This document shows positions 3,577 to 48,348 of a stretch of 64,000 nt of DNA, piece by piece. Source of the DNA: Kitasatospora kifunensis (GTDB lineage Bacteria > Actinomycetota > Actinomycetes > Streptomycetales > Streptomycetaceae); the NCBI RefSeq assembly GCF_014203855.1, contig NZ_JACHJV010000002.1:682001-746000 (forward strand). The letters run 5' to 3'. Under the pieces are notes generated by a model, which searched no databases, was not told where the DNA came from, and saw only the letters and a list, made by a program, of their open reading frames with translations. The first letter of the stretch is position 1, and the number at the start of each line of letters is the position of its first letter. The position numbers were made by a program, and so were the translations under genes.

Positions 3577-4605
3577 GTGCTCATCCTCGACACGACCGCT
3601 CCCGCCGAGGACGTCCTCGGCGGGCTGTGGGCGAACCTGCTCGCCGACGACCTGCCGCGCTTCGAGGCGTTCCTGGACCAGGCCCTGGCCCCGCAGCAGG
3701 AGTACCTCACCGACGGCGAGCGGGCCCTGTACCGGCACGGCAAGCGCCTGCGCCCGGCCGTCCTGCTGCTGGCCGCCCACCTGGTGCACGGCCCCGCGCC
3801 GCTTCCCGACAAAGTGCTCCAGGGCGCCGTCTCCCTGGAGATGCTGCACGTGGCGACGCTGATCCACGACGACATCGTGGACGGCGCGGCCCTGCGCCGT
3901 GGCCTGCCCTCGGTCAACGCCGCCCGGGGCACCGAGGCCGCGGTACTCGTCGGCGACCTGCAGTTCGTCCAGGCCATCCGCGGCTTCGTGGGAACGATCG
4001 ACCGGGACAGCGACATGGGCCTGATCGAACTCGTCCTCGACACCGCGTTCCAGATCGGTTGCGGGGAACTCGACGAGTTGCGCACCGACCTCTCCCAGGA
4101 TCCGCAGCTGCTGGCCAGGACCTACTGGCGCACCGCCGACCGCAAGACCGCCGCCCTGTTCGGGCTCGCGGCCGAGGCCGGGGTGACCCTGGCCGACGGG
4201 CGCAGCGGCGACGCCCGCCGTGCCGGGTTCTACGGCCGCCGGCTCGGCCGCGCCCTGCAGGTCATGGACGATCTGTTCGACCTCGCCCAGGACGAGTTGG
4301 GCTCCGGCAAGCCGCGCGGCATGGACCTGCTGCGCCGCCGCGCTTCGCTGCCGCTGATCTACGCCATGCAGGAGTGGGGCCCGCAGCACGCGGTCAGCCG
4401 CATCATGCGCGGCGAGGCCACCGACCCCTGCGTCCTTACGCGCACGCTCGCCGAGGTCTGCGGCGGTGCCGGCTTCTCACGCGCGTACACCGACGCCCGT
4501 GCGCAGGCGCTGGAGGCCGTCGAGCTGCTGCGCCCGTTCCCGGCCGGACGCTACCGCTACGCCCTGGAGGACCTGGCCCTGCACGTCGTGGACCGCGGGG
4601 TCTGA
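3577..4605 (+). CDS. Polyprenyl synthetase (trans-isoprenyl diphosphate synthase)
   Basis: A 342-residue trans-prenyltransferase that adds isopentenyl diphosphate units to an allylic diphosphate. Visible motifs: GKRLRP (55-60), first Asp-rich motif DDIVD (98-102) followed by LRRG, and second Asp-rich motif DDLFD (231-235), so both Mg2+-binding clusters are intact. The residues four and five places before the first motif are small (A93, T94, in HVATLIHDD). Aromatic residues there limit chain growth in short-chain enzymes, so a medium or long polyprenyl product is likely. The gene starts three bases after the upstream gene. No terpene cyclase or prenyl-quinone gene is nearby, so the fate of the product is unknown. 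Confidence 0.9.
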   Translation: MLILDTTAPAEDVLGGLWANLLADDLPRFEAFLDQALAPQQEYLTDGERALYRHGKRLRPAVLLLAAHLVHGPAPLPDKVLQGAVSLEMLHVATLIHDDIVDGAALRRGLPSVNAARGTEAAVLVGDLQFVQAIRGFVGTIDRDSDMGLIELVLDTAFQIGCGELDELRTDLSQDPQLLARTYWRTADRKTAALFGLAAEAGVTLADGRSGDARRAGFYGRRLGRALQVMDDLFDLAQDELGSGKPRGMDLLRRRASLPLIYAMQEWGPQHAVSRIMRGEATDPCVLTRTLAEVCGGAGFSRAYTDARAQALEAVELLRPFPAGRYRYALEDLALHVVDRGV

Positions 4606-4629
4606 GCTGCACGGCTGCACGGCTGCACG
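4606..4629 (+). repeat. Three 8-bp direct repeats after the prenyl synthetase
   Basis: GCTGCACG occurs three times without interruption, directly after the TGA of the polyprenyl synthetase gene. It is probably a slippage product. No function is evident. Confidence 0.5.
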
Positions 4630-4686
4630 GCAGCCCGCCCCCGACCACGGCCCCGACCAACACAACTGCCCCTGAAGGGAAGGCCC

Positions 4687-6420
4687 ATGGCCACCAAGCT
4701 GGTCGACTTCATCTACGCCACCATGTACAAGCGCATCAACAACCCGGACAGCCCGTACTGGCTGCCCACCGTCCTCAAGGACGTCCGCACGCCCGACGGC
4801 CAGGCGCTGAATCCGCTGACCGTCGAGGCGTGGGACATCGGGCAGTTGGACGGCACCGAGGGGAAGACGATCGGCGACGCCATCAGTTCCGCGTGGTGGA
4901 TCTTCGTGGGCGCCGCCTTCGACGACGCGAAGGACCGCGGTGTGCCCGATCTCCCGGACGACCTCGATCCCTTCAACAGCCAGCGCGACGCCGACCACCC
5001 CTACCCCTCGCTCTCCCTGACCACCGTCACCGTCGACGGGCTGGCGAACGCCTCGGTCGGGGAGCTGCAGAACCTCGCCCCCACCGACAAGGGCTACCGC
5101 GGCACGGTCCGGGTGACCACCGCGGCCTACGACACGCACGGGTGGCAGAAGCAGATCACGGTCAAGGGCACGTACAGCCTCGTGCAGCACGTCGTGGTGA
5201 TCGACGACACCGGGGAGCAGAACGCGGGCGAGGACTTGAAGCCGCCGACGAAGGTCGTGGTCAAGGGCCTGGAAGGGGTGGAGTGGCCGCGTCAGGAGAT
5301 CGAGGGCCACGGCCAGTTCACCGTCACGGCCCAGGACCTCGCCTTCGACGTCGTGCTCCGTGCCGAGCCCACCGGCACCGGCGTGAACCGCACTCCGCAG
5401 CTGACCGTCGAGTCGATCACCGTCGCCTCGCAGCCGACGTTCCACCTCGACGAGAAGTCCCTGACCATCGAGGGCAGCACGATCGATCAGGCCACCCTCG
5501 AGGTCTGGAAGCAGGCAGCGGCCGACGCCTTCAACAGCGACGACGCCGGCAAGGCCCTCGCCGCGAAGCTCGTCGACACGCTGGCCGCCCCCTCCTTCCG
5601 CGACCAGTTCTCCGCCACGCTCACCGGCCAGCTGGCCAAGGCACTCGACGGGGTGCTCGGCGCGGTGCCGCAGGGCAACCTGCCCTCGGACGACAGCGGC
5701 TTCCCGGCGAAGTACGGACCGCTGGAGATCTACCTCTTCGACCGGCTGCGGGCCTGCGTCAACGACACCGGCTCCGGCTTCTACCCCCCGACCGTCGTCC
5801 TGGGAGCGAGCGATCCGGTGCTCGAACCGTACGACGTGGGGGACATCGACCTCGGCTCGCACAAGATCGGCGTCGTGACGGCCGACCTCAGCTTCAAGGG
5901 CGGCACGATCAAGGGCATCTCCAACCTCCTGATCCCCGTCAAGGACGCCGCCCTCACCGACGGCGGCATCGGGGCGACCCTCAGGTTCGGCCGGCTCCCC
6001 GGCGCCGCGCAGGTTCCCGCGCCCCCGCTCACCATCACCGGTACGGGCGTCATCTCCTTCCCCGACAGCAGTGGCAGCGCGGTGGACGACGACGACACGA
6101 TCAAGGGCGACCTCACCGTCACCATCGACCAGCCCACGGCGACGGCCGCCCTGTCCTTCACCGGCCGCGACGCCGACGAACTCACCATCGGCCTGGACGC
6201 GCTCGCCCTCGACCTCGTCACGAAGGACCTCCAGGTCGCGATCCACCTCCAGGAGCCCAGCCCCCTGGAGAAGATCATCCAAAAGGTGCTCAACTCGGAC
6301 GAGGTCAAGCAGAGGATCATCACGGGGGTGCAGGGCACGGCCGACTCGCACCGCGGCGACATCGCCAAGGAGCTCACCGCCAACGCCCGCACGGTCATCC
6401 GCGCCAAGCTCGGGGGCTGA
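4687..6420 (+). CDS. Hypothetical protein (577 aa), prenyl-synthetase-associated
   Basis: ATG start behind a GAAGGGAAGG site. The protein opens MATKLVDFIYATMYKRINNPDSP and has a Trp-rich patch near residues 70-80 (SAWWIFVG). It continues with many short amphipathic strands (GTVRVTTAAYD, SLTTVTVDGL, PQLTVESITVAS) broken by helices such as FRDQFSATLTGQLAKALDGVLG. It ends with a helix near VKQRIITGVQGTADSH. No secretion signal or catalytic motif is visible. The strand-helix pattern resembles that of the 312-aa and 1237-aa proteins of the cluster, which suggests related lipid- or hydrophobe-binding modules; this is inference. It is eight bases upstream of the next start. Confidence 0.65.
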   Translation: MATKLVDFIYATMYKRINNPDSPYWLPTVLKDVRTPDGQALNPLTVEAWDIGQLDGTEGKTIGDAISSAWWIFVGAAFDDAKDRGVPDLPDDLDPFNSQRDADHPYPSLSLTTVTVDGLANASVGELQNLAPTDKGYRGTVRVTTAAYDTHGWQKQITVKGTYSLVQHVVVIDDTGEQNAGEDLKPPTKVVVKGLEGVEWPRQEIEGHGQFTVTAQDLAFDVVLRAEPTGTGVNRTPQLTVESITVASQPTFHLDEKSLTIEGSTIDQATLEVWKQAAADAFNSDDAGKALAAKLVDTLAAPSFRDQFSATLTGQLAKALDGVLGAVPQGNLPSDDSGFPAKYGPLEIYLFDRLRACVNDTGSGFYPPTVVLGASDPVLEPYDVGDIDLGSHKIGVVTADLSFKGGTIKGISNLLIPVKDAALTDGGIGATLRFGRLPGAAQVPAPPLTITGTGVISFPDSSGSAVDDDDTIKGDLTVTIDQPTATAALSFTGRDADELTIGLDALALDLVTKDLQVAIHLQEPSPLEKIIQKVLNSDEVKQRIITGVQGTADSHRGDIAKELTANARTVIRAKLGG

Positions 6421-6427
6421 GCCCTCC

Positions 6428-9400
6428 ATGACGATCGAGGAACTCCGGGCCCTGATCACCCGGCACACCAAGGACGCCACCCTCACCCTCCCCGCCGCCG
6501 ACCTCGGCACCGGGCCCGCCGCCGCGCTCGTCGGCGGGTGGCTCGACGGCACGCTCACCGTCACGGACCTGCGGCGCGAGGACCACGCCGACAGTGTGGT
6601 GGTGCACGGCACGCTCACCATCACCGGCCTCGGCCTCAGCGACCAGCAGGTCGACGGGATCGAATTCGGTCTCGACCCCGTCGACCACGGTCCCACGCTC
6701 TACCTCCCGCTCACCCTGCCCGCGGACTGGACCTTCGCCACCTCCTTCCCCGCCACCGAGGGCAGCGACCTGGCCGCCCTCGCCTTCCCCGCACCGCCCG
6801 CGCTGCTGCTCACCTCGGCGGCCCGGCCCGCCCGCGACGGGTACTCCGCACTGGATCCCGGCCTGACCTTCCACGCCGCCCAGGTGACCGACCCGCAGCA
6901 ACTCGGCAGCCTCGCCGCGCTGCTGCGCCCCCGGCCCGGGACACTGACGCTGACCGGGCCGGTCCTGCGCCGTCCCGCCAAGGGCCCCGGCGACGAGGCC
7001 CGCACCGACATCGCGCTGCGCTCAACTCCCCAGCCGGACGCGGCGTTCTCCGCGTCCTTCACCCTGTGGGCCGGATCCCGCGAGGACGGGGCGAACGGCT
7101 CCGCGGTCGGCTACGGTCTGCGGCTGGCGGCGGACCTGGTCCTGGGGAAGGCAGTCGGCGCGACGATCAGCGCTCCGCTGCCCTCCGGCGGCGCAGCGCT
7201 CACGCTCAGCGCCGACCGGCTGCCCGAGCGGCTGACCACGGGCGACCTCGCCGCGTGGAACGGCACCGGCGCAGCGGTCCACCAGCTGGTCGACCAGGAG
7301 GGCTTCGCGCTCGGCGACTTCGTGCGCCTGACCGGGATCACCGCCGCCATCGACCCCGCGGCGTTCGCCAAGGGCGGGCTGGCGGCAGCGCTGGCCCAGG
7401 TCAGCGCCACCGTCGAGACCATGCCCGGCACCACCTGGCCGATCCTGGGCGACGACCTCGCCCTGACCGGCGTCGGCGCCACCCTGACCGTCACCAATCC
7501 GCTCCAGCCGTCCCGCGCGGCGAAGGTCACCGGGCACGGCGACTTCACCGTCGCGGGCAACGTCAGCCTGCACGCCACCGCCGAGATACCGCCCGGCACG
7601 TTCCGGCTCTCCCTCGACGAGAGCACACCCGCCGAACTGCGGGACGTGCTCCAGCACTTCCTGCCGCACGCCGACCTCACCGGCGTGCCCGATCTGACGC
7701 TGAAGAAGTTCTCCGGCACCGCCACGCCGAAGAAGGGCGCCTACGAGGTCGACGCGTCCGTCTCCTCCGACTGGCACATCGACGTCGGCGCCGCCCGCGT
7801 CACTCTCACCGAGGCAGGGCTGGAGCTGGCGCGCGAGGGCGGCGAAGGCAGCAAGGGCGCCGGCGTGGTGCGGCGTCCGGGCGGCGCGGGCGGCGCCGCC
7901 GTTCCCGGGAACGGCGGCTCGCGGACCACCGGCACCCTGTCGGCCAAGGCCGAACTCGGCCCGGCCACCGGCGGCAACGGCTCGGTCGTGAAGTTCTCCG
8001 CCAAGTGGACGATCCCCGGCGCCTTCGAGCTCGACGGGACCTTCCCGGACCTCGACCTGACCGCTCTCCTGAAGTCCCTCGCCTGCCAGGCCGAGGTGCC
8101 GTTGCCCGAGGGCCTGCCGCAAGTCTCCCTGCTCCAGCCCGCCGTGACCCTACGCCTGGGGAGCGCGTTGTCGGGGCAGTCGGCGGCGGGGAAGAGCTAC
8201 GAGCTGGCGGTCAGCACCACGGCGGCCTTCGACGCGGCGCAGTTGACCTTCTTCGGCAAGGCGGCCAGGACGGCGGAGGGCGGCACCCTGTTCGCCGCCG
8301 CGTTCTGGCAGCAGGACTGGGTCTGGTCGCCGGGCAAGGTGTCCACCTGGGCACCGGTGCTCGGCTTCCTCGACGACATCAGCTTCGTGCAGTCCGGGCT
8401 GGCCGTCAGCTCCGCCGACGGGGTGGCCGTCGATGCCGGGACCGAGGCGCCCGACACCCTGCCCGCCACCTTGGACAAGGGCCTGACCTTCTTCACCGAG
8501 CTGGGTCTGACCGGCCCGCTGGCGCCCTTGCGGGTGCTGTTCGAGGACGCCAATGGCATCCGCCTGACGGCCCGGCTCACCACGCCGGTCCAGGAGTCCG
8601 AGTTCACCGCCTCCATCGCGGAGCAGAAGACCCGGGAGGGATTCGGCGGCCTCACCCTCGCGTTCCGCCCCGCGCAGCGGGAAGTGTCCCTCCAGACGTC
8701 GTGGAACTTCAGCGTCCCAGCCGTCGGCTCCGCTCCTGCGACCCTGCTCCAGTTCGTTGCCGGCGGGGCTCTCAAGGGCACCGAGTTCCACCTCTTCCTG
8801 GTCCTCAAGCCCGCCGGGTCCGCGGCGCAAGCGGTCCCCGCCGGACGGCCAGCGCCGCACCAACTGGCCTACGCCCTGCGGTCGTCAGGGCACACGCTGC
8901 TCACCGCGGACCCCGTCCCCGGGGCCGACGGCGGCCTCGTCCACGAGGCGAGGCCCCACCGCGATAGCGCGAGCAGGAGCGCGGACAGCCTGCTGCGTAA
9001 CACCGCGAGCCGCCTCGCCGGGCTCGCCGATCCGCCCCCGGACGCCGACCGCCCCACGTGGCAGAACGCCTTCGGCGTGGAGGGCTTCGACGTCCACTAC
9101 TTCTACCTGCAGATCGGCTACGGCACGGGGACCGGGTTCACCCTGGGCGCGGGTGGTTCGGTGGTCATCGGCGAGGCCACCCTGGACCTCGACATCGAGG
9201 GCGGCTTCGAGCCCGAGCCGTTCGTCACCGTCTTCCGCTTCGACCTGGGGACCGTCCACCAAGGCGCCGGCATCTCGATCTGGGACCTGCTCGCCGTCCT
9301 CACCACCCCGCCCAGCTGGCTCGCCTTCCTCAAGCAGATCGTGCTCCACGAGCTGGCGATCTGCGTGGTCACTGCCCCCGGCGGCTGGACCAACCCGGTG

Positions 9401-32081: not shown

Positions 32082-32576
32082 TCACTTGTCGTACAGGGCC
32101 CAGGTCTGGTTGGGCGCGCCGAAGACGGCCGGTGCCAGCGTCACGGGCGTGTCGAATCCGTTGCCCTGAAGGACCTCGTTGCGGTTCTTCTGGCTGGCGA
32201 TGGTGGTCTGCTCCTGGCCGAAGTCGACGACCCAGCGCTGCGAGAGCTTGTTGTTGTCGCAGGGCTGCTGCGTCACGGGGGCGCCCACGCCGGCGTCCTG
32301 GATGCAGGTGCTGGGGAAGACGGTGCTGCTGATGGTGTAGATGCCGGTGCCCTCGGGGGTGATGGAGACCTGGTTGAAGGTCCACACCTGGTAGCCCAGG
32401 CTGGAGTCGCGGGTCCACACCTGGTGTCCGTCGAAGGCGTCGAGGTTGGTGTCGTCGGCGTAGTTCTGGACGGACTTGGTGGTCGTGACGGCGTGCGCCG
32501 GCGCGGCGAACAGCACCATGCCGGCCAGCGCGCTGGTCACGGCGGCGAAGGATGCTGCTTTACGTCCGAAGGTCAT
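32082..32576 (-). CDS. Small secreted ricin-type lectin-like protein
   Basis: A 164-residue protein with signal peptide AASFAAVTSALAGMVLFAAPAHA. The mature part has three QxW-like repeats of a beta-trefoil: GYQVWTFNQV, LSQRWVVDFG and NQTWALYDK, with one Cys pair (STCIQDAG, QQPCDNN). The ricin-B fold binds sugars, but here it is a stand-alone domain without an enzyme. AGGAG lies eight bases before ATG 32576; an ATG six codons upstream lacks a site. The extracellular role is unknown. Confidence 0.75.
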   Translation of the reverse strand: MTFGRKAASFAAVTSALAGMVLFAAPAHAVTTTKSVQNYADDTNLDAFDGHQVWTRDSSLGYQVWTFNQVSITPEGTGIYTISSTVFPSTCIQDAGVGAPVTQQPCDNNKLSQRWVVDFGQEQTTIASQKNRNEVLQGNGFDTPVTLAPAVFGAPNQTWALYDK

Positions 32577-32833
32577 GGCTGCACTCCTGTTCAACTCTCA
32601 AGGAGAGTAGACGGGTTGACGACGACTACGATGGCGTTCCCCCCGAACCAAAGACTACGGACGGTTAGGTCGTGGACGACGTGTTTGCTCGGCGTGGCCT
32701 CACGAACAATGAGAATCACCCTTTCGCCAGCGCCGACCGGACGCGGCGGCCCGTGCCCCGGATTCGCAGTGTTGATCGTGCTTGGGGCACCTGTTGAGGC
32801 AGTAGTCGGCGCCGCGCGCCCTTGCGTTGTCGG

Positions 32834-33906: not shown

Positions 33907-36438
33907 TCAGGCCAGACACGGCAGGCTCCGGGGCGGGGCGGGGCGCCCCCGCCCGGTCGGCGACCACGTGATGACGTCATGGATCCGCTCGTCCCAGGCG
34001 GGGCCACCGCTGTCCGCCGCCGCGATGCGAGCCAGCCGGGCGTGGTGGCGGGCGCTGGTCCGGTCGCCGGTGCGAGTGCAGGCGTCGGCCAGGCAGTGGT
34101 GCGCCCAGGCACGGGCGGCGACGGCGCCGAGGCGTTCGGCCGCGGCGAGGCCACGGTGCCACACGGCCACCTGATCGTGCGGCTGCTCCTGCCACTTCAG
34201 GAAGCCGTCCAGTACCCGGGCCAGCTGCCACACCAGGGTGTCCCATCCCTGCCGGTCGGCCAGGCGCTGGGCGGCGAGCAGGCAGGTGCGCTCGGCGCGG
34301 AACCACGACCTGGCGGCCCTGCGGTCGGCCAGCGGCTGCGGGGTCACACCGTCCAGCGGCGGTTCGAGTTCCGGGTGCTGGAACCGGTCCGGGCCGAGCG
34401 CGTGGTCACCGGCGGCCGCGGTGTGCAGGTAGAAGTCCAGCACCCGTCGCAGTGCGCGCTCGCACGACTGCGCCGTGCGGTACTCGGCCGCGTACAGGCG
34501 GATCAGGTCGTTCATGCGGTACCGGCCGGGCGCGTGCTGCTCCAGCAGGTGGACCGCCTCCAGCTCCCGCAGCGCCGCCCGGGTCGCGGCCGGTGAACGG
34601 CCGAGCAGGCTGGCGGCCGCGGCGAGCCCGATCTCCGGCCCCGGGGCCACTCCGAGGAACCGGAACGCCTCGGCGGCCCCCGGGGTGAGGCTCCGGTACG
34701 ACAGCAGGCAGGCCGCCCGTACGTCGGCCGACGGGCTGCCCGCGTCCAGCGCGTCCAGCCGCGCCGACTCGTCCTGGAGTTCCTCGGCGAAGGCCGCCAG
34801 CGGGAAGCCGGTCCTGGCCCTCGCGCGGGCTGCCGCGACGCTGATCGCCAGCGGCAGGCCCGCGCAGTGCTCCAGCATGGCGGTCGCGGCCTCGGGATCG
34901 GCGCAGACCCGGTCCTCGCCCAGATGGCGACCGAGCAGATCCCGGGACTCGGACGCGGAGAACACGTCCAGCGGCAGCAGGTGCGCCCCGTGGGTGACGG
35001 CGAGTCCGGTCAGCCACCGGCGGCTGGTGACCAGGACCGCGGATCCGGCGCCGCCCGGCAGCAGCGCGGCCACCTGTTCGGCGTCCGCGGCGTTGTCCAG
35101 CACGATCAGCATGCGCCGGTCCGCGACCAGGCTGCGGTACAGCCCGGTCAGCGCCTGAGGGTCCATCGGTGCCGAGCCCAGGTCCACCCCGAGACCGTCG
35201 AGGAAGCCCCGGATCGCGGTGGCGGGCGCCAGTGGCTCTCCCAGGAGGTCGAAGCCGCGAAGGTCCACATAGAGCTGTCCCTGGGGGAACCGGTCGGTGT
35301 TCCGGTGCGCCCAGTGCAGGGCGAGCGAGGTCTTTCCGATGCCGCCACCGCCGCTGACCACACACACCGCCACCGCCCCGCCACCCCGCCCGCCCTGCTC
35401 CAGGGCCTGGTCGAGCACTGCGAGTTCGCGCCGCCGCCCGGTGAACCACCGTGCCGTGGCCGGTAGTTGGCGCGGGACGGTGCCCTCCCGCAGCATGGCG
35501 ACGCCGGCGGGGGGTACAGCACCCGCCGTACCACCGGCGGCACCCGTGGCACTGCCCGCCGCACCAACCGCCGCGGCACCCATCAGGCAGACCGCAGCCG
35601 TGCCGTCCGCCGTGCCCGGCAGTCCCGACACGCCGACCACCGGATCGCCGGCCAGCACGCGCCGGTGCAACTGCCGTAGCTCAGGGCCCGGATCGCTCCC
35701 CAACTCCTCCGCGAGCGCGCACCGGACCCGCTCGAAACAGCGCAGGGCGTCGGCCGTCCGGCCGCTGCGGTAGAGCGCCAGCATGAACTGAGCGGCCAGG
35801 CGTTCGTCCAGGGGGTGCGCTTCGTGGCAGTTGGCCAGTTCGGCCAGCAGCACGGCGTGGCGACCGCGGCGCAACTCGAGGTCGTTGCGGTCGAGTCGGC
35901 ACGCGTGCCGCATCTCGGACAGCAGCCCCCTCGCCGAGTTGAACCACGGCCTGTCCACTCCGGCGAACGGTTCGCCCCGCCACAGCCCAAGTGCCCGGTC
36001 GAACAGGGCGACGGCGCGGTCGTCGTCCGCCGCCCGCGCCCGTGCGACCAGGTCGTGGAAGACGTGCACGTCCACGACGCCCGGGTCGGCGAGCAGCGCG
36101 TACCCGCCGGGGCGCCGCGCGATGGACGGCTGCCCGGCAGCGGCCGCGCCCGTCGAGGCGCCGTCCGGCGCGGTGTCCAGCACCTGCCGCAGCCGGGACA
36201 GGTAGCTGTACAGCGCCGGCCCGACGCGCTGCGGCACATCGGCGCCCCACACCCGGTCGGCCAGCCCCTCCATCGGCACCACACGGTTGACGTCCATCAG
36301 CAGGGCGGCGAGCACGGTGCGTTGCCGGGTCGGCCCCAGGTGCACGGTGACACCGCCCCGGTGCGCCTGGATCTCCCCGAGCATCGCGAACCCGATCGTC
36401 AATGTGCCCCGCCCGTCTCGCGCCGAGTCCCCGTTCAT
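33907..36438 (-). CDS. AfsR/SARP-family regulator with NB-ARC ATPase
   Basis: An 843-residue SARP. N-terminal OmpR-like winged helix (TVHLGPTRQRTVLAALLMDVNRVVPMEGLADRVWG), bacterial transcriptional activation domain (RARAADDDRAVALFDRALGLWRGEPFAGVDRPWF through LRQLHRRVLAGDP). Then an NB-ARC ATPase with Walker A SGGGGIGKTSLALHWAHRN, RRMLIVLDNAADAEQ as Walker B, and LPLAISVAAARARA, followed by helical repeats. SARPs activate nearby biosynthetic genes by binding direct repeats near -35. It diverges from the six-cysteine peptide gene, the typical position for a pathway-specific activator. ATG 36438 gives the normal N-terminus. Confidence 0.9.
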   Translation of the reverse strand: MNGDSARDGRGTLTIGFAMLGEIQAHRGGVTVHLGPTRQRTVLAALLMDVNRVVPMEGLADRVWGADVPQRVGPALYSYLSRLRQVLDTAPDGASTGAAAAGQPSIARRPGGYALLADPGVVDVHVFHDLVARARAADDDRAVALFDRALGLWRGEPFAGVDRPWFNSARGLLSEMRHACRLDRNDLELRRGRHAVLLAELANCHEAHPLDERLAAQFMLALYRSGRTADALRCFERVRCALAEELGSDPGPELRQLHRRVLAGDPVVGVSGLPGTADGTAAVCLMGAAAVGAAGSATGAAGGTAGAVPPAGVAMLREGTVPRQLPATARWFTGRRRELAVLDQALEQGGRGGGAVAVCVVSGGGGIGKTSLALHWAHRNTDRFPQGQLYVDLRGFDLLGEPLAPATAIRGFLDGLGVDLGSAPMDPQALTGLYRSLVADRRMLIVLDNAADAEQVAALLPGGAGSAVLVTSRRWLTGLAVTHGAHLLPLDVFSASESRDLLGRHLGEDRVCADPEAATAMLEHCAGLPLAISVAAARARARTGFPLAAFAEELQDESARLDALDAGSPSADVRAACLLSYRSLTPGAAEAFRFLGVAPGPEIGLAAAASLLGRSPAATRAALRELEAVHLLEQHAPGRYRMNDLIRLYAAEYRTAQSCERALRRVLDFYLHTAAAGDHALGPDRFQHPELEPPLDGVTPQPLADRRAARSWFRAERTCLLAAQRLADRQGWDTLVWQLARVLDGFLKWQEQPHDQVAVWHRGLAAAERLGAVAARAWAHHCLADACTRTGDRTSARHHARLARIAAADSGGPAWDERIHDVITWSPTGRGRPAPPRSLPCLA

Positions 36439-36545: not shown

Positions 36546-36568
36546 GCAACGAGATGAATGGACATCCC

Positions 36569-36784
36569 ATGCGCAAGTGGCTCCAGAACCTGTCCGACTC
36601 CCTGGTCGACCGCCTGGTCCCGAAGGCGGAGGCTGCCGCTGCCACCAACTGCTGGACCGAGGAGCGGTGCAGCTTCGGTCCTCCGGAGGCGTGCAGCAGC
36701 ACCAACCGCAAGATGCTGTTCACCTACCTGCACTGCGCCGACGGCTCCACGAGTTTCGTCGGTTCCCGCTGCGCCAACTGCTGA
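36569..36784 (+). CDS. Six-cysteine exported peptide precursor
   Basis: A 71-residue peptide. The leader MRKWLQNLSDSLVDRLVPK is an amphipathic helix without the hydrophobic core of a Sec signal. It ends in AEAAAAT (20-26), which offers AXA sites for a signal-peptidase-type cut. The remaining 45 or so residues hold six cysteines (28, 34, 42, 56, 68, 71), enough for three disulfides, with aromatic and polar residues and a C-terminal Cys. An ATG five codons upstream (36554) is possible; neither has a strong ribosome site. The adjacent redox, exporter and signal-peptidase genes suggest a dedicated pathway. I know no named family for it. Confidence 0.75.
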   Translation: MRKWLQNLSDSLVDRLVPKAEAAAATNCWTEERCSFGPPEACSSTNRKMLFTYLHCADGSTSFVGSRCANC

Positions 36785-36825
36785 CGCCTGGGCCCGCTGA
36801 CAGAGCCGCCAGGCCGGTGAGAAGC

Positions 36826-36863
36826 CCGGCGGGGGGCGGTACGCCGGCACCGCCCCCCGCCGG
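36826..36863 (+). terminator. Strong stem-loop between peptide gene and its processing genes
   Basis: Bases 36826-36840 pair without mismatch with 36849-36863, a 15-bp stem with an 8-base loop, 41 bases after the peptide stop. It could partly terminate or protect the upstream mRNA, giving far more precursor than enzyme transcript, as is usual in peptide operons. There is no U-run. Confidence 0.6.
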
Positions 36864-36867
36864 ATCT

Positions 36868-36913
36868 CCGAGCACACACCGAGTTGCCGAGCACACACCG
36901 GATCTCCGAGCAC
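36868..36913 (+). repeat. Three direct repeats, 19-bp spacing
   Basis: CCGAGCAC starts at 36868, 36887 and 36906; the first two copies extend to CCGAGCACACACC. They lie between the stem-loop and the start of the MauE-like gene. They could be an activator binding site for a second promoter, or simply slippage. SARP sites usually have 11- or 22-bp spacing, so the fit is imperfect. Confidence 0.45.
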
Positions 36914-36930
36914 CAAGAAGGTTCCACGCC

Positions 36931-37476
36931 ATGGACGTTGTCATCTGGGTCAGCCGGGGCTGCCTGCTGCTGGTGTTCGCCCTGTCCGTCCACGGGAAGG
37001 TGCGTGGCCGGGGCGCCTTCGAGGAGTTCACCGGGTCCGTGCGCGCCCTGGTGCCGGCCTTCGCCGACCGGGCCCGGCCGCTCGCCATCCTGGTCGTGGC
37101 CGCCGAGGCCGCGGTCGTGGTGACGCTCGCGCTGCCGGGTGCCGTCGTGGCCGGACTCGCCCTCTGCGCCGCCCTGTTGACCGCCTTCACCGTGCTCGCC
37201 GTCACCGCGTCACGTGCCGGGAGCAGCACGCCGTGCCGCTGCTTCGGGCACTCGTCGACCCCCCTGGGCACCGTCCACGCCGTGCGCAACGCCGCACTGC
37301 TCACCCTGGCCGGGGCCGGCCTGGCCGCCACGGCCCTGTCCGGACCGGGACACGCCACCTTGGCGGCGGCCGCGACGGCTTTCCTGGTGGGCGGTGTCCT
37401 GGGCCTACTCGCCACGGCGCTCGACGACCTCGTCGGACTCTTCCGGCCGCTGCCCCGAAAGGAAAACTCACCGTGA
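36931..37476 (+). CDS. MauE/DoxX-like redox membrane protein
   Basis: A 181-residue integral membrane protein with four hydrophobic helices (VIWVSRGCLLLVFALSVHGK; PLAILVVAAEAAVVVTLALPG; AVVAGLALCAALLTAFTVLAV; AALLTLAGAGLAATAL), a fifth near 145-165. Its CRCFG motif (C102, C104) is the redox motif of MauE, which in methylotrophs is needed with MauD to form the disulfides of the methylamine dehydrogenase small subunit. No methylamine dehydrogenase is present here, so the likely client is the six-cysteine peptide. AAGAAGG precedes the ATG. Its stop overlaps the next GTG (GTGA). Confidence 0.85.
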   Translation: MDVVIWVSRGCLLLVFALSVHGKVRGRGAFEEFTGSVRALVPAFADRARPLAILVVAAEAAVVVTLALPGAVVAGLALCAALLTAFTVLAVTASRAGSSTPCRCFGHSSTPLGTVHAVRNAALLTLAGAGLAATALSGPGHATLAAAATAFLVGGVLGLLATALDDLVGLFRPLPRKENSP

Positions 37477-38048
37477 GCCCGCTCACCGTCGCCGTTGCCG
37501 CAGTCGGCGCCCTGTCCCTGCTCAACCTCGTCTTCGCCCTGGGCATCGTCAGGCGGCTGCGCGAGCACTCCGAACAGCTGGCGAACGTCGCCAGGCCCGT
37601 GGCCGGGGCGCCCGGGCAGGCCGTCGCCCCGGTCGGTACCCCGGTCGGTGCCTTCCACACCGGGACGGCCGGCGACACCGGGACGGCCGGCGACGCGCTC
37701 GGCCACGAGGACCTGGCGGACGGAACCCTGGTCGCGTTCTTCTCGCCCACCTGCGAGCCCTGCCGGGACAAGCTGCCCGGGTTCGTCGCGCGGTTCGCGC
37801 ACCGGCCGCAGGAGCGGGAGCGCGTCCTCGCCGTCGTCGTCGGAGAGGCGAAGGCCTGCGCGCCGATGCTCGCCTCGCTGGCCGCCGTGGTGCCCGCCGT
37901 CCAGGAGGACCAGGGCGGGCCCGTGTCCACGGCGTTCGCCGTGCGTGCCTTCCCCACCTGTGCGCGGGTGGGGCGCGGACCGGACGGGCGGCTCCTGGTG
38001 ACCGAGGCCGACGTCTGGCCGCAGGCGGCCGTCGCCGCCGCACTGTGA
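37473..38048 (+). CDS. MauD/TlpA-like membrane-anchored thioredoxin
   Basis: A 191-residue protein with one N-terminal membrane helix (VAVAAVGALSLLNLVFALGIV), a flexible Gly/Ala linker with a duplicated GTAGDTGTAGD segment, and an extracellular thioredoxin-like domain. The active site is FFSPTCEPCRDKLPGF (C94, C97). It lacks the usual cis-Pro pattern in an easily read form but has VRAFPTCARV where cis-Pro is expected. It probably forms or isomerises disulfides using the MauE-like protein as electron acceptor. GTG 37473 overlaps the preceding stop by four bases and follows AAAGGA; its own stop overlaps the next GTG. Confidence 0.85.
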   Translation: MSPLTVAVAAVGALSLLNLVFALGIVRRLREHSEQLANVARPVAGAPGQAVAPVGTPVGAFHTGTAGDTGTAGDALGHEDLADGTLVAFFSPTCEPCRDKLPGFVARFAHRPQERERVLAVVVGEAKACAPMLASLAAVVPAVQEDQGGPVSTAFAVRAFPTCARVGRGPDGRLLVTEADVWPQAAVAAAL

Positions 38049-40024
38049 GCGCGCCGGTGCCGAACGGCGATGCGCAAGGTCCCCGCGGCGTGCCGCGCGT
38101 CCTGGCCGCCGCGATCCGCCTGGTGCACCGGGCCGCGCCCGTCGGCCTGATCACCTGGCTGCTGCTCACCGTCGCCGCCGCAGCGCTACCGGTGGCCGCG
38201 GCCTGGATCCTGCGGACCCTGCTCGACCGCCTCGTCGCCGGAGCCGGTGGTGGAGCCGGAGCCGGGGCCGGAGGAGGAATCGGAGCCGGAGCGGGAACGG
38301 GAGCGGGCCCCGGCTCCGCGGGCCTCACCGCCCTGGCCCTGCCGCTGGTCGGCTGCGGCGTCGCCGTGGCGCTCGTCCCCCAGCTGCTGCAGTACGTGCA
38401 GGCGCGGCTGCGCCGAGCGGTGGGGCTGCGGGCCCAGCTCGAACTGCACACAGCGGTCGACCGGTTCGTGGGACTGCGCCGCTTCGAGGACCCGCGCTTC
38501 CTGGACCGGCTGCGGCTGGCCCAGCAGTTCGGCGGCTCCGCCCCCGTGGACGCGGCCGGCAGCGGTATCGGGCTCGTCGGGGCGCTGGTGACCCTCACCG
38601 GGTTCCTCGGGACGCTCACCCTGCTCGGGCCCTGGATGGCGGCGGCGGTCCTGGCGTCCGGCATACCGGTCCTGTGCGCCGAGATCGCGCTCAGCCGCCG
38701 CCGGGCAGCGGTGGCCTGGGCCGTCGGCCCGGTGGAACGCAGGGAGCTGTTCTACAGCGCCCTGCTGACGAACCTACGGGCCGCGAAGGAGATCCGGCTC
38801 TTCGGCGTGGGGCGGTTCCTGCGCGAGCGGATGCTGCTGGAACGCCGTACCTCCGACGCCGCCAAGCAGCGGATGGACCGTCAGGAGCTCACCGTCCAGG
38901 CCGCACTCGCCCTGCTGTCGGCCGTGGTGGCCGGCGCCGGGCTGCTGTGGGCCGTGACGGCGGCCCGCTCAGGGCGCATCACCATCGGGGACGTCACCCT
39001 GCTGGTCGCCGCCCTGCCCGCCGTGCAGGCGGCCCTCGCCGGCCTCGCGCTCGAACTGGCCCGCGCCCACCAGGCCGTGCTGATGTTCCGTCACTTCATC
39101 GCCGTCACCGGCGCGCCACCCGACCTTCCGCTGCCCGCGCGGCCCGCCGGCGTGCCGCCGCTGCGCCACGCGGTGGAGTTCCGCGACGTGTGGTTCCGCT
39201 ACGGCGACCGGCAGCCCTGGGTGCTCAAGGGCGTCGACCTGGTGATCCCCGCGGGGCAGGCCGTGGGGCTGGTCGGCCTCAACGGCGCCGGCAAGTCCAC
39301 CCTGGTGAAGCTGCTCTGCCGGTTCTACGACCCCACCCGCGGCCAGATCCTCTGGGACGGCACGGACCTGCGCGAACTGTGCCCGGGTGAGTTGCGCCGA
39401 CGGATCGGAGCGACCTTCCAGGACTACATGGAGTACGACCTCACGGCACGCGAGAACATCGCCCTCGGCGACCTCACGGCGCTGGCGGACGGTCCCCGGG
39501 TCGAACGGGCGGCCGAACTCGCCGGCCTGCACGGCCAGCTCGCGCGCCTGCCGAACGGCTACGACACCCTGCTCAGCCGCATCTTCTTCGGCGAGCAGGA
39601 CAAGGAGGACGCCGGCACCGGTCTGGTGCTCTCCGGCGGCCAGTGGCAACGGCTGGCCCTGGCCCGCTCGCTCGTGCGCACCGACGCGGACCTGCTCATC
39701 CTCGACGAACCCAGCTCCGGCCTGGACCCGGAGGCCGAGTACGCCGTCCACCAGCGCCTGCGCCGGCACCGCGCAGGGCGCGCCGGGCTGCTCATCTCAC
39801 ACCGCCTCAGCACCCTGCGCGACGCGGACACCGTCGCCGTCCTGGAGGACGGTCGGATCACCGAGGCGGGCTCGCACCAGGACCTGGTCCGTCGTGACGG
39901 CTCCTACGCTCGGCTCTTCCGCCTCCAGGCCAGCGGATACGCGCCCGCCGAGGACGGCGCACCGCAGTCACCCGACGCGACGCCCGCACGGATCCTCCTC
40001 GGCGAGCACGAGCAGGCGTCATGA
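38045..40024 (+). CDS. ABC exporter (fused membrane and ATPase domains)
   Basis: A 659-residue type-IV ABC half-transporter with about six helices and a C-terminal ATPase. Walker A GLNGAGKST (about 412-420), Q loop FQDYMEY, signature LSGGQWQR (about 529), Walker B DLLILDEPSSGLD and switch SHRLST are all intact. Unusual: the first outer loop has some 28 residues of almost pure Gly/Ala (about 68-98). There is no N-terminal C39 peptidase, so leader removal must be done by another protein; the next gene, a signal peptidase, fits. Coupled on both sides by 4-base overlaps. Probably exports the six-cysteine peptide. Confidence 0.92.
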   Translation: MSAPVPNGDAQGPRGVPRVLAAAIRLVHRAAPVGLITWLLLTVAAAALPVAAAWILRTLLDRLVAGAGGGAGAGAGGGIGAGAGTGAGPGSAGLTALALPLVGCGVAVALVPQLLQYVQARLRRAVGLRAQLELHTAVDRFVGLRRFEDPRFLDRLRLAQQFGGSAPVDAAGSGIGLVGALVTLTGFLGTLTLLGPWMAAAVLASGIPVLCAEIALSRRRAAVAWAVGPVERRELFYSALLTNLRAAKEIRLFGVGRFLRERMLLERRTSDAAKQRMDRQELTVQAALALLSAVVAGAGLLWAVTAARSGRITIGDVTLLVAALPAVQAALAGLALELARAHQAVLMFRHFIAVTGAPPDLPLPARPAGVPPLRHAVEFRDVWFRYGDRQPWVLKGVDLVIPAGQAVGLVGLNGAGKSTLVKLLCRFYDPTRGQILWDGTDLRELCPGELRRRIGATFQDYMEYDLTARENIALGDLTALADGPRVERAAELAGLHGQLARLPNGYDTLLSRIFFGEQDKEDAGTGLVLSGGQWQRLALARSLVRTDADLLILDEPSSGLDPEAEYAVHQRLRRHRAGRAGLLISHRLSTLRDADTVAVLEDGRITEAGSHQDLVRRDGSYARLFRLQASGYAPAEDGAPQSPDATPARILLGEHEQAS

Positions 40025-40446
40025 TCGAACGGTTCGTCCGCCGCCTGCTGCGCGCCCGCCTGCTGGCCGTCACCGTGACCGGCCCCAGCATGGAGCCCTC
40101 CCTGCGCGACGGTGACCGCGTCCTGGTGATGCGCCGGCACCCGCGCCGCCTGGTCCGCGGCCACGTCGTGGTGCTCGGACCCGACGGTGACAGGCGCGTC
40201 CCGGGCACGGGGCCGCGCGGCCTGCTCATCAAGCGGATAGCGGCCGCCCCGGGTGACCCCGTCCCGCCGCCCCTGGCCGCCCGGCTCGGCTGCCCGCCGG
40301 GTTCGACCGTGCCACCGGGCCGCCTGCTGGTCCTGGGTGACAATCCGCCTCTCAGCCTCGACTCCCGCCACTTCGGCTACGTGGCACAGGAGCGGGTGGT
40401 GGGGGTGGCGGTCCGTTCACTGCGCTGCCTGCCGGCGGGAGGCTGA
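40021..40446 (+). CDS. Small S26-family signal peptidase
   Basis: A 141-residue signal peptidase I-type protein, much shorter than housekeeping SipA-type enzymes. The Ser-Lys dyad is present: S23 in GPSMEPSLRDGD and K71 in LLIKRIAAAPGD. The box LVLGDNPPLSLDSRHFGYV is also conserved. The N-terminal hydrophobic stretch is short (LLRARLLAVTVTG), so membrane anchoring is weak or absent. Its ATG overlaps the ABC stop (ATGA). It is the obvious protease for the AXA sites in the six-cysteine precursor, because these sites are not preceded by a Sec-type core. It ends the operon. Confidence 0.9.
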   Translation: MIERFVRRLLRARLLAVTVTGPSMEPSLRDGDRVLVMRRHPRRLVRGHVVVLGPDGDRRVPGTGPRGLLIKRIAAAPGDPVPPPLAARLGCPPGSTVPPGRLLVLGDNPPLSLDSRHFGYVAQERVVGVAVRSLRCLPAGG

Positions 40447-46530: not shown

Positions 46531-48348
46531 AATCAAGTGAGCAGGAGTGAGTCTTGGACCCAGTGCTGATCACTGCGCGCATCCCGAACGGTGTTGGATG
46601 CCCGACTGGTCGCCCGCGTTCTCTTGGTCCCTGTTCGGGTGCGTGCATCGTGTGCACGCTCCGTGACGGGGCGGCGGGTCTCCTCACGCCCCCGGTCACC
46701 CGGTTCGGCCTGGACGGTCCGATGCCCACGACGATCGCTCTGGTCGTCGTGGGGCGGTGCTGTCCGTCGCCGGATCGAGTGTCCGAGGGCGCGTCGTCCG
46801 ATGGCAACAGCGGCGCTGTCGTGGCGGGTGGTGGTGCGTCGCGGGGTCGTGAGCGGCTTCTGCCAGTGCTGCGCGCCCCAGATGCTGGTGTAGGCGGGGT
46901 CGGCCGCGACGATCGCCAGGTCCAGCTCGGCGGCCATCGACACGAGGCGTGCCTTGAGTTTTCCGGTGGGGATGCCCGAGATGAGCTGTCGGAAGCGCTT
47001 CTTGCGGCCGTGCTTCTCGCGGGTCTTCTCATCCGCGAAGTCGAGGTTCTCCAGGCCGATCGCGTTGACGCCGCAGCGCTTGGCCCAGTGCAGCAGGCGC
47101 GTGATGGCGTGCCTGATCTGCGCGTCGCGGTGCCCAGCCGACCCGGACAGGTCGTAGGGGAAGCGGTGGGGCTCGCCGATGGGGTTGCCGTGCTTGTCCA
47201 GGCGCCAGGCGGCGAAGTGGTCGGCGTTGGTGTCGACGCCGACCATGCCATTCGCGCGGGCCCTCTCCAGCGGGACCGTGCGGACGACCGGCCGGGTCCA
47301 TGCCGCGTCGAGGTACCACCGCCCGCGCGCGACGTCGTGGTGGATGCGGTACGCCACCGCCCGGTCGCCCTCGACGCGGTCGGCCCACTCGGCACCCCGG
47401 TGCGCGAACGCGACCCTGGCCGCCAGGACGTACCGGCTGTGTCCGGCGTTGGCCAGGGCAGCGAGCGGCGCGGGCAGCCTGATCGACACCTCACCGTCGG
47501 GGCTCACCCGGATCGTCTCATTGCCGTACCGCTTGCCCGACTCGCCGTCGGCGGACAGGAACCACCGCGCCGCCTCCCACCGCTGACGCCACTGCGCCTC
47601 GGTGAGCTGGGCGGCGGTCAGGTGGTGGCGGGTGTTCAGCAGCTTGCGGCCCCCGCGCACCACCCGCACCCGCCCAGCATCCCGATCCGCACCGACCGCG
47701 GCACGCCGCTCCTCCAGGGCGTGCAGGCGGCGGGACTTGACGAACCACTCCCGCCTGGACCGATAGCCACCCGAGGCATGCTTGTGGCCCTTCTCCCCGA
47801 TCGGCAGGGACAACCGGTGGCGCAGCGTGCGGATACCGGCGTCCAGACTGTCCAGGTGTGCGGCCTGCCCCCGGCTCGACAGTGCCCACTGGTCGTGGGT
47901 GGCCTTGGTGATCGACCCGGCCCACCGCGACGACGACTGCGGGGTCAGGCCCCGTTTGCGAGCCGCCCAGCCGTCCGCGCAATGCCCCACACCATCCGCA
48001 CACCGGATGGCCAGATCACGGGAGGCCAGCGAACCCAGATGCTCACCGACCAGCCGCAGGACCCTCTCGTCCTCCGACGTCAGCCCCTTGAGACGGTCAC
48101 GCACCGACACCCCGCTCGGCCCGACCACCACGAACGGCGAGCCAATCGGCCGCAGCCTCCTCTTCTCCGACACGCCCGATCACCTCCCTCATCCACCGAG
48201 CAGAGCGAGCATAGGCACAATCACCGACAGACCATCAAAGCAGATCAAAAATTGCTGAATTGGACACGGATGGAACTCCTGGGGGAGAACTCCCGCACAC
48301 TCAAGCGCACTTATACACACTCGGCGACCAGCAACCAACAACCCCTGC
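46531..48348. mobile_element. IS200/IS605-like element with TnpB only
   Basis: About 1.8 kb lies between two halves of the GH3 gene. The halves rejoin in frame and without duplication as VNRS|GRLPVSIPG if 46531-48348 is removed; a few bases of uncertainty remain. No target duplication and no inverted ends are typical of the IS200/IS605 group. Both ends contain small imperfect hairpins (46531-46560; CTCC/GGAG around 48275-48290), and the right end (48185-48345) is A/T-richer than its surroundings. Only TnpB is encoded; no Y1 TnpA is seen, so a helper would be needed to move it. Confidence 0.75.
46533..48173 (-). CDS. TnpB-like RNA-guided nuclease homologue
   Basis: A 546-residue TnpB-related protein. 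The RuvC catalytic residues are D314 (MVGVDTNADHFAAW), E375 (AIGLENLDFA) and D452 (RHDSAAVAIGRRALG), so the DED triad is present. The zinc-finger cysteines that lie between the second and third motif in classical TnpB are missing (YTSIWGAQHWQKPLTTPRR). Residues 470-546 are unlike any protein domain and coincide with the place where the omega-RNA is encoded in IS200/IS605 elements. The GTG start is at 48173. A Cas12-type role is not suggested; there is no CRISPR array nearby. Confidence 0.8.
   Translation of the reverse strand: MSEKRRLRPIGSPFVVVGPSGVSVRDRLKGLTSEDERVLRLVGEHLGSLASRDLAIRCADGVGHCADGWAARKRGLTPQSSSRWAGSITKATHDQWALSSRGQAAHLDSLDAGIRTLRHRLSLPIGEKGHKHASGGYRSRREWFVKSRRLHALEERRAAVGADRDAGRVRVVRGGRKLLNTRHHLTAAQLTEAQWRQRWEAARWFLSADGESGKRYGNETIRVSPDGEVSIRLPAPLAALANAGHSRYVLAARVAFAHRGAEWADRVEGDRAVAYRIHHDVARGRWYLDAAWTRPVVRTVPLERARANGMVGVDTNADHFAAWRLDKHGNPIGEPHRFPYDLSGSAGHRDAQIRHAITRLLHWAKRCGVNAIGLENLDFADEKTREKHGRKKRFRQLISGIPTGKLKARLVSMAAELDLAIVAADPAYTSIWGAQHWQKPLTTPRRTTTRHDSAAVAIGRRALGHSIRRRTAPPHDDQSDRRGHRTVQAEPGDRGREETRRPVTERAHDARTRTGTKRTRATSRASNTVRDARSDQHWVQDSLLLT

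Follow-up and report, generated by a model that had tools for sequence, protein, structure and literature searches.

A 64,000-nucleotide stretch of the Kitasatospora kifunensis genome (contig NZ_JACHJV010000002.1, positions 682,001 to 746,000; hereafter the window) contains a compact gene cassette centred on a short cysteine-rich peptide. The host genome comprises 9.57 Mb in four contigs, and the contig bearing the window accounts for 0.99 Mb. A precursor gene is followed on the same strand by genes for a MauE-family membrane protein, a thioredoxin-like protein, an ATP-binding cassette (ABC) exporter and an S26-family protease, and a regulatory gene diverges from the group (Table 1). An earlier sequence-only reading of the same DNA had described a precursor of 71 residues with six cysteines (Cys) followed by these four genes in this order, and coordinates, translations and domain matches agree with that description. 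The motifs it named were also found, namely CRCFG, CEPC, the ABC motifs (PF00005) and the S26 Ser-Lys pair (SMEP/IKRI), and the four-base overlaps it reported could be confirmed at each of the three junctions joining the MauE, thioredoxin-like, ABC and S26 genes.

Table 1. Cassette genes and the adjacent regulator in the window.
Feature	Position	Strand	Basis
Precursor gene	36569..36784	+	ATG 36569 to TGA 36784; 71 aa, six Cys; translation, homologs
MauE-family membrane protein, C-x-C (CRCFG)	36931..37476	+	PF07291, E 7.4e-22
Thioredoxin-like (MauD/TlpA/ResA-like) protein, CEPC	37473..38048	+	Translation; N-terminal membrane anchor by eye
ABC exporter, membrane and ATPase domains fused	38045..40024	+	ABC_tran PF00005, E 3.2e-28
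S26 signal-peptidase-family protease, SMEP and IKRI	40021..40446	+	Peptidase_S26 PF10502, E 4.1e-20
SARP/AfsR-type regulator (BTAD, NB-ARC), divergent	33907..36438	-	BTAD PF03704, E 4.6e-37

The window MauE protein passes the PF07291 cut-off (78.5 bits against 27), and the S26 protein lies above the NCBIfam cut-off for signal peptidase I (72.2 bits against 47). The thioredoxin-like protein stays below every cut-off, with AhpC-TSA as its Pfam match (E 0.017) and ResA as its best NCBIfam match (E 2.2e-4). The window precursor matched no Pfam or NCBIfam model. A scan of six proteins of the cluster and seven from its flanks found neither a lanthionine synthetase nor any other peptide-modifying domain.

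The start of the precursor was placed at ATG 36569 because the homologs begin at the equivalent position; an in-frame ATG at 36554 would lengthen the peptide by five residues. Its leader spans about residues 1-24 and ends in V-P-K-A-E-A-A-A, and the core of about 47 residues has the Cys framework C-x5-C-x7-C-x13-C-x11-C-x2-C. The GC content at third codon positions is 0.90, and homologs occur in 5 of the 70 genomes of the same genus, its own included. Comparison with the closest relative (L038) revealed six synonymous and three non-synonymous codon differences, the latter all in the core. The homologs, together with the Cys parity and the gene linkage described below, rule out a chance open reading frame (ORF).

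To follow the recurrence of the cassette, we searched 394 genomes of the family with the window MauE sequence, and 59 of them, the host included, matched at E 1e-10 or better. The window, 40 of these places (mostly top-listed), and one locus each from Stackebrandtia albiflava and Streptosporangium sp. KLBMP 9127 made up a set of 43 MauE-anchored loci. In 41 of the 43, a profile scan recovered the full set of four machinery genes, a count that describes the set rather than tests it, because these loci had also served to train the profiles; in L001 the ABC gene is absent from the stretch, and L072 holds MauE alone. Cys-rich precursors accompany the machinery in 42 of the 43 loci, 45 precursors in total. 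The sequence-only reading had named homologous clusters lacking any Cys-rich small ORF as evidence against it, and the single such case, L072, lacks the other machinery as well. These first 45 precursors were chosen by at least 3-4 Cys residues and in part by a ribosome-binding site, GC bias or the leader motif; L001, with only 4 Cys, and L057, whose leader is atypical, count as weak members.

The linkage also holds in the reverse direction. A precursor profile (A1, built from 43 precursors and containing the Cys columns) was run blind to the machinery on 394 genomes of the class and matched at 46 places in 22 genomes, the host among them. In a second family (f17), all 37 places corresponded to 33 loci, of which 29 contained the full set, three contained three genes (L114, L132 and L135) and L134 contained one. 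Among 200 genomes of the order to which f17 belongs, 88 had a precursor match, spread over 18 of 45 genera and with up to seven matches per genome. Twenty further loci were taken from the listed places, one each from 20 previously unused genomes: 15 had the full set, L168 three genes, L165 two, L161 one, and L151 and L157 none. Altogether, 44 of the 53 precursor-anchored loci contained all four genes and 48 contained at least three, scored by presence and not by order in stretches of 7-13 kb. This precursor-first test agrees with the result from the MauE-anchored loci. A cassette at another site of the genome may serve the precursors of L151 and L157, whose 13-kb stretches are devoid of machinery. 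A phylum-wide search gave 3/296 matches at E 1e-4, including the host's own and one from a member of its family; the remaining one (L141, genome G884), a match to the precursor profile, comes from a distantly related member of the phylum with a genome of 1.5 Mb. We conclude that the system is real, widespread and under-described.

The leader is the constant part of the precursors. Profile A1 gives the leader consensus MxxxLxxxxDRLLxRxVPxxxAxA, and among 79 unique precursors Pro occupies position -7 in 76, Ala position -3 in 79 and Ala position -1 in 78. Position 0 was placed by a rule that sought A-x-A, so only the spacing of the Pro and the fact that 81 of 83 rows could be split provide free evidence for the site. 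A-x-A fits the -3/-1 rule of type I signal peptidases. Most leaders are devoid of a strong hydrophobic core, as the best 11-residue mean hydropathy has a median of 0.75 and a maximum of 2.25. The S26 proteins retain the Ser of SMxP and the Lys of the KR-type motif in 74 of 74 sequences, and 65 of 74 have an N-terminal hydrophobic segment (19-residue hydropathy at least 1.6). The S26 protein is likely the leader peptidase.

The core, by comparison, varies widely. Across 45 precursors, the leaders have a mean identity of 0.39 and the cores, Cys residues excluded, one of 0.13, and 54 different Cys frameworks occur among 79 precursors, some of the relatives carrying 8 or 10 Cys. A scan of 43 precursors found no NCBIfam family and no convincing Pfam model; six single-member Pfam matches (E 0.016-0.074) were taken as chance. 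What the cores share is an even number of Cys residues, seen in 97 of 100 unique cores, which are non-independent sequences. In the first set, 76 of 77 unique cores are even, and after clustering at 60% identity 52 of the 53 representatives are (p 6e-15 in a binomial test against one half); in the second set, unclustered by identity, 21 of 23 unique cores are even. Before the count, the leader split had removed two of 83 rows, L001 (4 Cys) and L125 (6 Cys). Control ORFs from the same loci (50-100 residues, at least 4 Cys) were even in 95 of 152 cases, and those with at least 6 Cys in 15 of 25. An even number suggests that all Cys residues are paired, either through disulfides or as ligands. 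Three seven-Cys precursors (L064:6668-6835 and the L159 frames 4602-4850 and 8559-8750) resemble each other by eye.

An AlphaFold2 model of the window precursor predicts a three-stranded core, in which blocks of residues 31-70 average 85-87 pLDDT; confidence is low for the leader. Fold searches with Foldseek and VIA returned no significant match. In Foldseek, laterosporulin3 formed the top row (E 0.50, TM-score by target 0.60) and laterosporulin the third, both with E above 0.001, and in VIA the laterosporulin rows reached Z 2.8-3.0 among unrelated rows with Z up to 3.6. The likeness of the predicted core to the laterosporulin fold is suggestive only. At the level of sequence, profile A1 run against PDB sequences retrieved only betacellulin and an LRP2 domain (E 1.5-4.4), and no laterosporulin.

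The redox pair and the exporter were compared across the loci in the same way. The thioredoxin-like proteins keep both the CxxC motif and a Pro at the cis-Pro position in 73 of 73 sequences, and the two Cys residues of the MauE C-x-C motif are kept in 71 and 72 of 74, respectively. The AlphaFold2 model of MauE has six helices and a mean pLDDT of 93.9. In fold searches with this model, a VKOR chain (4nv5; rank 31, Z 5.0, root-mean-square deviation 3.5, 111 residues aligned) ranked below unrelated helical bundles, and nothing was drawn from this match. The host genome encodes a second MauE (L147:5558-6058, CGCFG), adjoining a PF13462 DsbA-like CPAC protein with a hydrophobic N-terminal stretch and Lgt; the region spans L147:3428-6058, at about 2.075-2.078 Mb of contig C1 of the host genome (G000). 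MauE together with a thioredoxin-fold partner thus occurs twice in this genome, and the second MauE and its DsbA-like neighbour are likely a general MauE/DsbA pair. No C39 domain was found by Pfam on the 19 exporters scanned of the 70 at hand.

Apart from the machinery, only one group of neighbours is widespread by loose clustering, that of the SARP-type regulator. Sequences related to it occur in 35 of 76 loci (loose single linkage), and the regulator adjoins the precursor in L038-L042 as well as in the window. It is probably the regulator of the cluster.

The gene set, its reciprocal linkage with the precursor, the conserved leader and A-x-A, and the diverse cores with their even number of Cys residues are best explained by a dedicated line that makes and exports leader-directed, disulfide-rich peptides, a reading to which we assign a probability of roughly three in four. 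The order of the steps, their side of the membrane, the direction of the redox reaction, the disulfide bonds and the biological role are inferred as follows. The divergent SARP-type regulator would probably turn the cassette on. The precursor would be made with a leader of about 24 residues, which the ABC exporter probably recognises, and the peptide would be exported through it. The S26 peptidase would cleave after A-x-A, and the MauE/thioredoxin pair, acting outside the membrane, may form or proofread the disulfides of the core, presumably three in the window member. The mature peptide, of about 47 residues, would most likely resemble a bacteriocin or a defensin. Cut after residue 24 and with three disulfides, the window peptide would have an average mass of 5134.7 Da, or 5063.6 or 5205.7 Da for a cut one residue later or earlier, respectively. 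The sequence-only reading had likewise proposed that the MauE/thioredoxin pair forms disulfides in a secreted peptide, and its mechanism is the best available reading.

Several observations weigh against this account. Some leaders are fairly hydrophobic (best 11-residue mean up to 2.25), and Sec export is possible as judged by hydropathy. In the window's own clade (the window and L038-L042), the S26 hydrophobic segment is found in none of six proteins, so the side of the membrane on which these proteases act is uncertain, and the second NCBIfam match of the window S26, below the cut-off, is a nickel superoxide dismutase maturation protease. Fold searches with MauE returned nothing significant. 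ResA is a reductant, and the pair could reduce or isomerise disulfides because the thioredoxin-like protein is nearest to ResA, albeit below the cut-off. The precursors of L151 and L157 stand in stretches without machinery, and L134 and L161 have one machinery gene and L165 two. Three cores, one in L064 and two in L159, are odd, with seven Cys each. As for the product, the net charge of the core is 0 to +2 in 59 of 77 cases, not strongly cationic, and loose clustering of the neighbours recognised no immunity gene.

The last two points bear on a less probable reading, in which the same production line makes a disulfide-rich peptide that acts in signalling or morphogenesis and not as an antimicrobial. 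Neutral to mildly cationic cores, the want of a recognised immunity gene and the adjacent SARP-type regulator would all suit a signal. Yet core diversity under a conserved leader is more typical of weapons, as is the occurrence of up to seven matches in one genome, and no conserved receptor gene was seen in the loose clustering, in which only the SARP-type group was widespread. The parity leaves room for a further alternative, namely that the Cys pairs bind metal, that they are kept in the reduced state by the redox pair until the metal is loaded, and that the peptide is secreted as a metallophore or for metal storage. Even numbers suit ligand pairs equally well, the thioredoxin-like protein is nearest to ResA, and the second MauE of the host weakly matches HvfX, a maturation protein of a copper-binding RiPP (ribosomally synthesised and post-translationally modified peptide), below the cut-off (E 7.3e-4). 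We nevertheless consider metal binding improbable: 54 Cys spacings among 79 precursors better suit varied disulfide scaffolds than one metal site, the predicted core forms a compact three-stranded fold, and no metal-handling domain was found in the 13 proteins scanned, which are part of the window's genes.

That the redox genes serve an unrelated enzyme, with the small ORF as a chance neighbour, is scarcely credible in view of the linkage found from both ends, in 43 MauE-anchored and 53 precursor-anchored loci. MauE does occur outside the set, in L072 and in the second host copy near Lgt. A further comparison is with methylamine utilisation, with which the cassette shares a PF07291 member and a thioredoxin-like partner gene, whereas the constant companion in our loci is the Cys-rich precursor. 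No match to the methylamine dehydrogenase subunits (PF02975, PF06433) was found in the host genome, but this is weak evidence against such an enzyme, as no control genome matched either.

Turning to known systems, the contrast with lanthipeptides and C39-processed bacteriocins drawn in the sequence-only reading is borne out by the 13 proteins without a lanthionine synthetase and the 19 exporters without C39; moreover, the window leader ends in A-E-A-A-A and not in the GG or GA of double-glycine leaders. The same reading knew of no named class with this gene set. Among the papers listed from an open-licence library, we likewise found no described or named class, although mauE-containing candidate RiPP families had already been listed by decRiPPter (2020, PMC7794033). 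As far as the sections of that report considered here go, it presents three such families from Streptomyces, one of them also with mauD, beside a Cys-rich predicted precursor in clusters filtered for a transporter, a regulator and a peptidase. Its authors propose a role in precursor modification, calling that of MauE speculated and that of MauD unclear, and the clusters are product-less. The window resembles these families in having mauE near a Cys-rich precursor with a transporter, a peptidase and a regulator. By description rather than by sequence, the precursors differ, with at least 8 Cys in theirs and 6 in that of the window. In the same sections, the leader motif, the S26 protease, the A-x-A site, the Cys parity and occurrence beyond Streptomyces are undescribed, and its main text nowhere uses the terms S26, signal peptidase or thioredoxin. 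A paper on RiPP leader proteases (PMC10885120) does not contain the terms S26, signal peptidase, disulfide or mauE.

Among characterised products, the laterosporulins of Brevibacillus are small and share six Cys with the window core; they have been termed defensin-like bacteriocins (excerpts of PMC6989792). A hypothetical gene, a dehydrogenase gene, a regulator and an ABC transporter are the neighbours given for the laterosporulin locus, and the words leader and thioredoxin are absent from the text of PMC3293901. The actifensins of Actinomyces come close in several features: their six-Cys core contains three disulfides and follows a leader of 32 residues, ABC genes lie near the precursor, and the family is diverse. 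They differ by a conserved G-x-E before the core, separate genes for ABC permease and ATPase, and a subtilisin-like protease, and the same excerpts of PMC6989792 do not name MauE, thioredoxin or S26. The system has an in silico precedent and a familiar product type, secreted disulfide-rich ribosomal peptides; what is new is the S26-type site behind a constant leader, together with a dedicated MauE/thioredoxin pair and freedom of the Cys framework.

Peptides rich in disulfides, defensins and conotoxins among them, are valued as scaffolds but hard to make. A compact line able to export, cut and apparently fold widely differing Cys frameworks behind one leader could yield many new peptides (precursor matches occur in 88 of the 200 genomes sampled in one order), and a bacterial line of this kind might serve as a production tool for disulfide-rich peptides. 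Such kits, with very different peptides in many related bacteria, are probably a little-studied source of antimicrobial or signalling peptides. We would go further only at even odds: one leader and a four-protein line may accept almost any even-Cys core, like a venom gland, with scaffolds freely shuffled and the MauE/thioredoxin pair as a cargo-tolerant folding machine, in which case these loci would represent a large unnamed class of secreted actinomycete peptides. The cassette also offers a clear genetic test of MauE-family protein function. Streptomyces clavuligerus carries the system, which makes it testable there: on its large plasmid, MauE/DoxX, the ABC exporter and S26 are annotated by name, and two six-Cys precursors and the thioredoxin-like gene as 'hypothetical protein'.

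Among plasmid records, 26 of 31 with exporter matches fall in Streptomyces. A plasmid of Streptomyces sp. NBC_01237 (L143:3600-4460) has two precursors, with an apparently decayed third just before them. In L042 (6164-6772, genome G015), mauE is split over two frames by a frameshift or a sequencing error, and this sequence was excluded from the MauE alignment (A3). Within the window, a 546-residue ORF on the minus strand (46533-48173) resembles a TnpB-type transposon protein by eye, with no Pfam match at E 0.001. A small ricin-type lectin-domain protein (PF00652) is encoded at 32082-32594, also on the minus strand, and a RICIN-domain gene is also found near the S. clavuligerus cluster, perhaps by chance.

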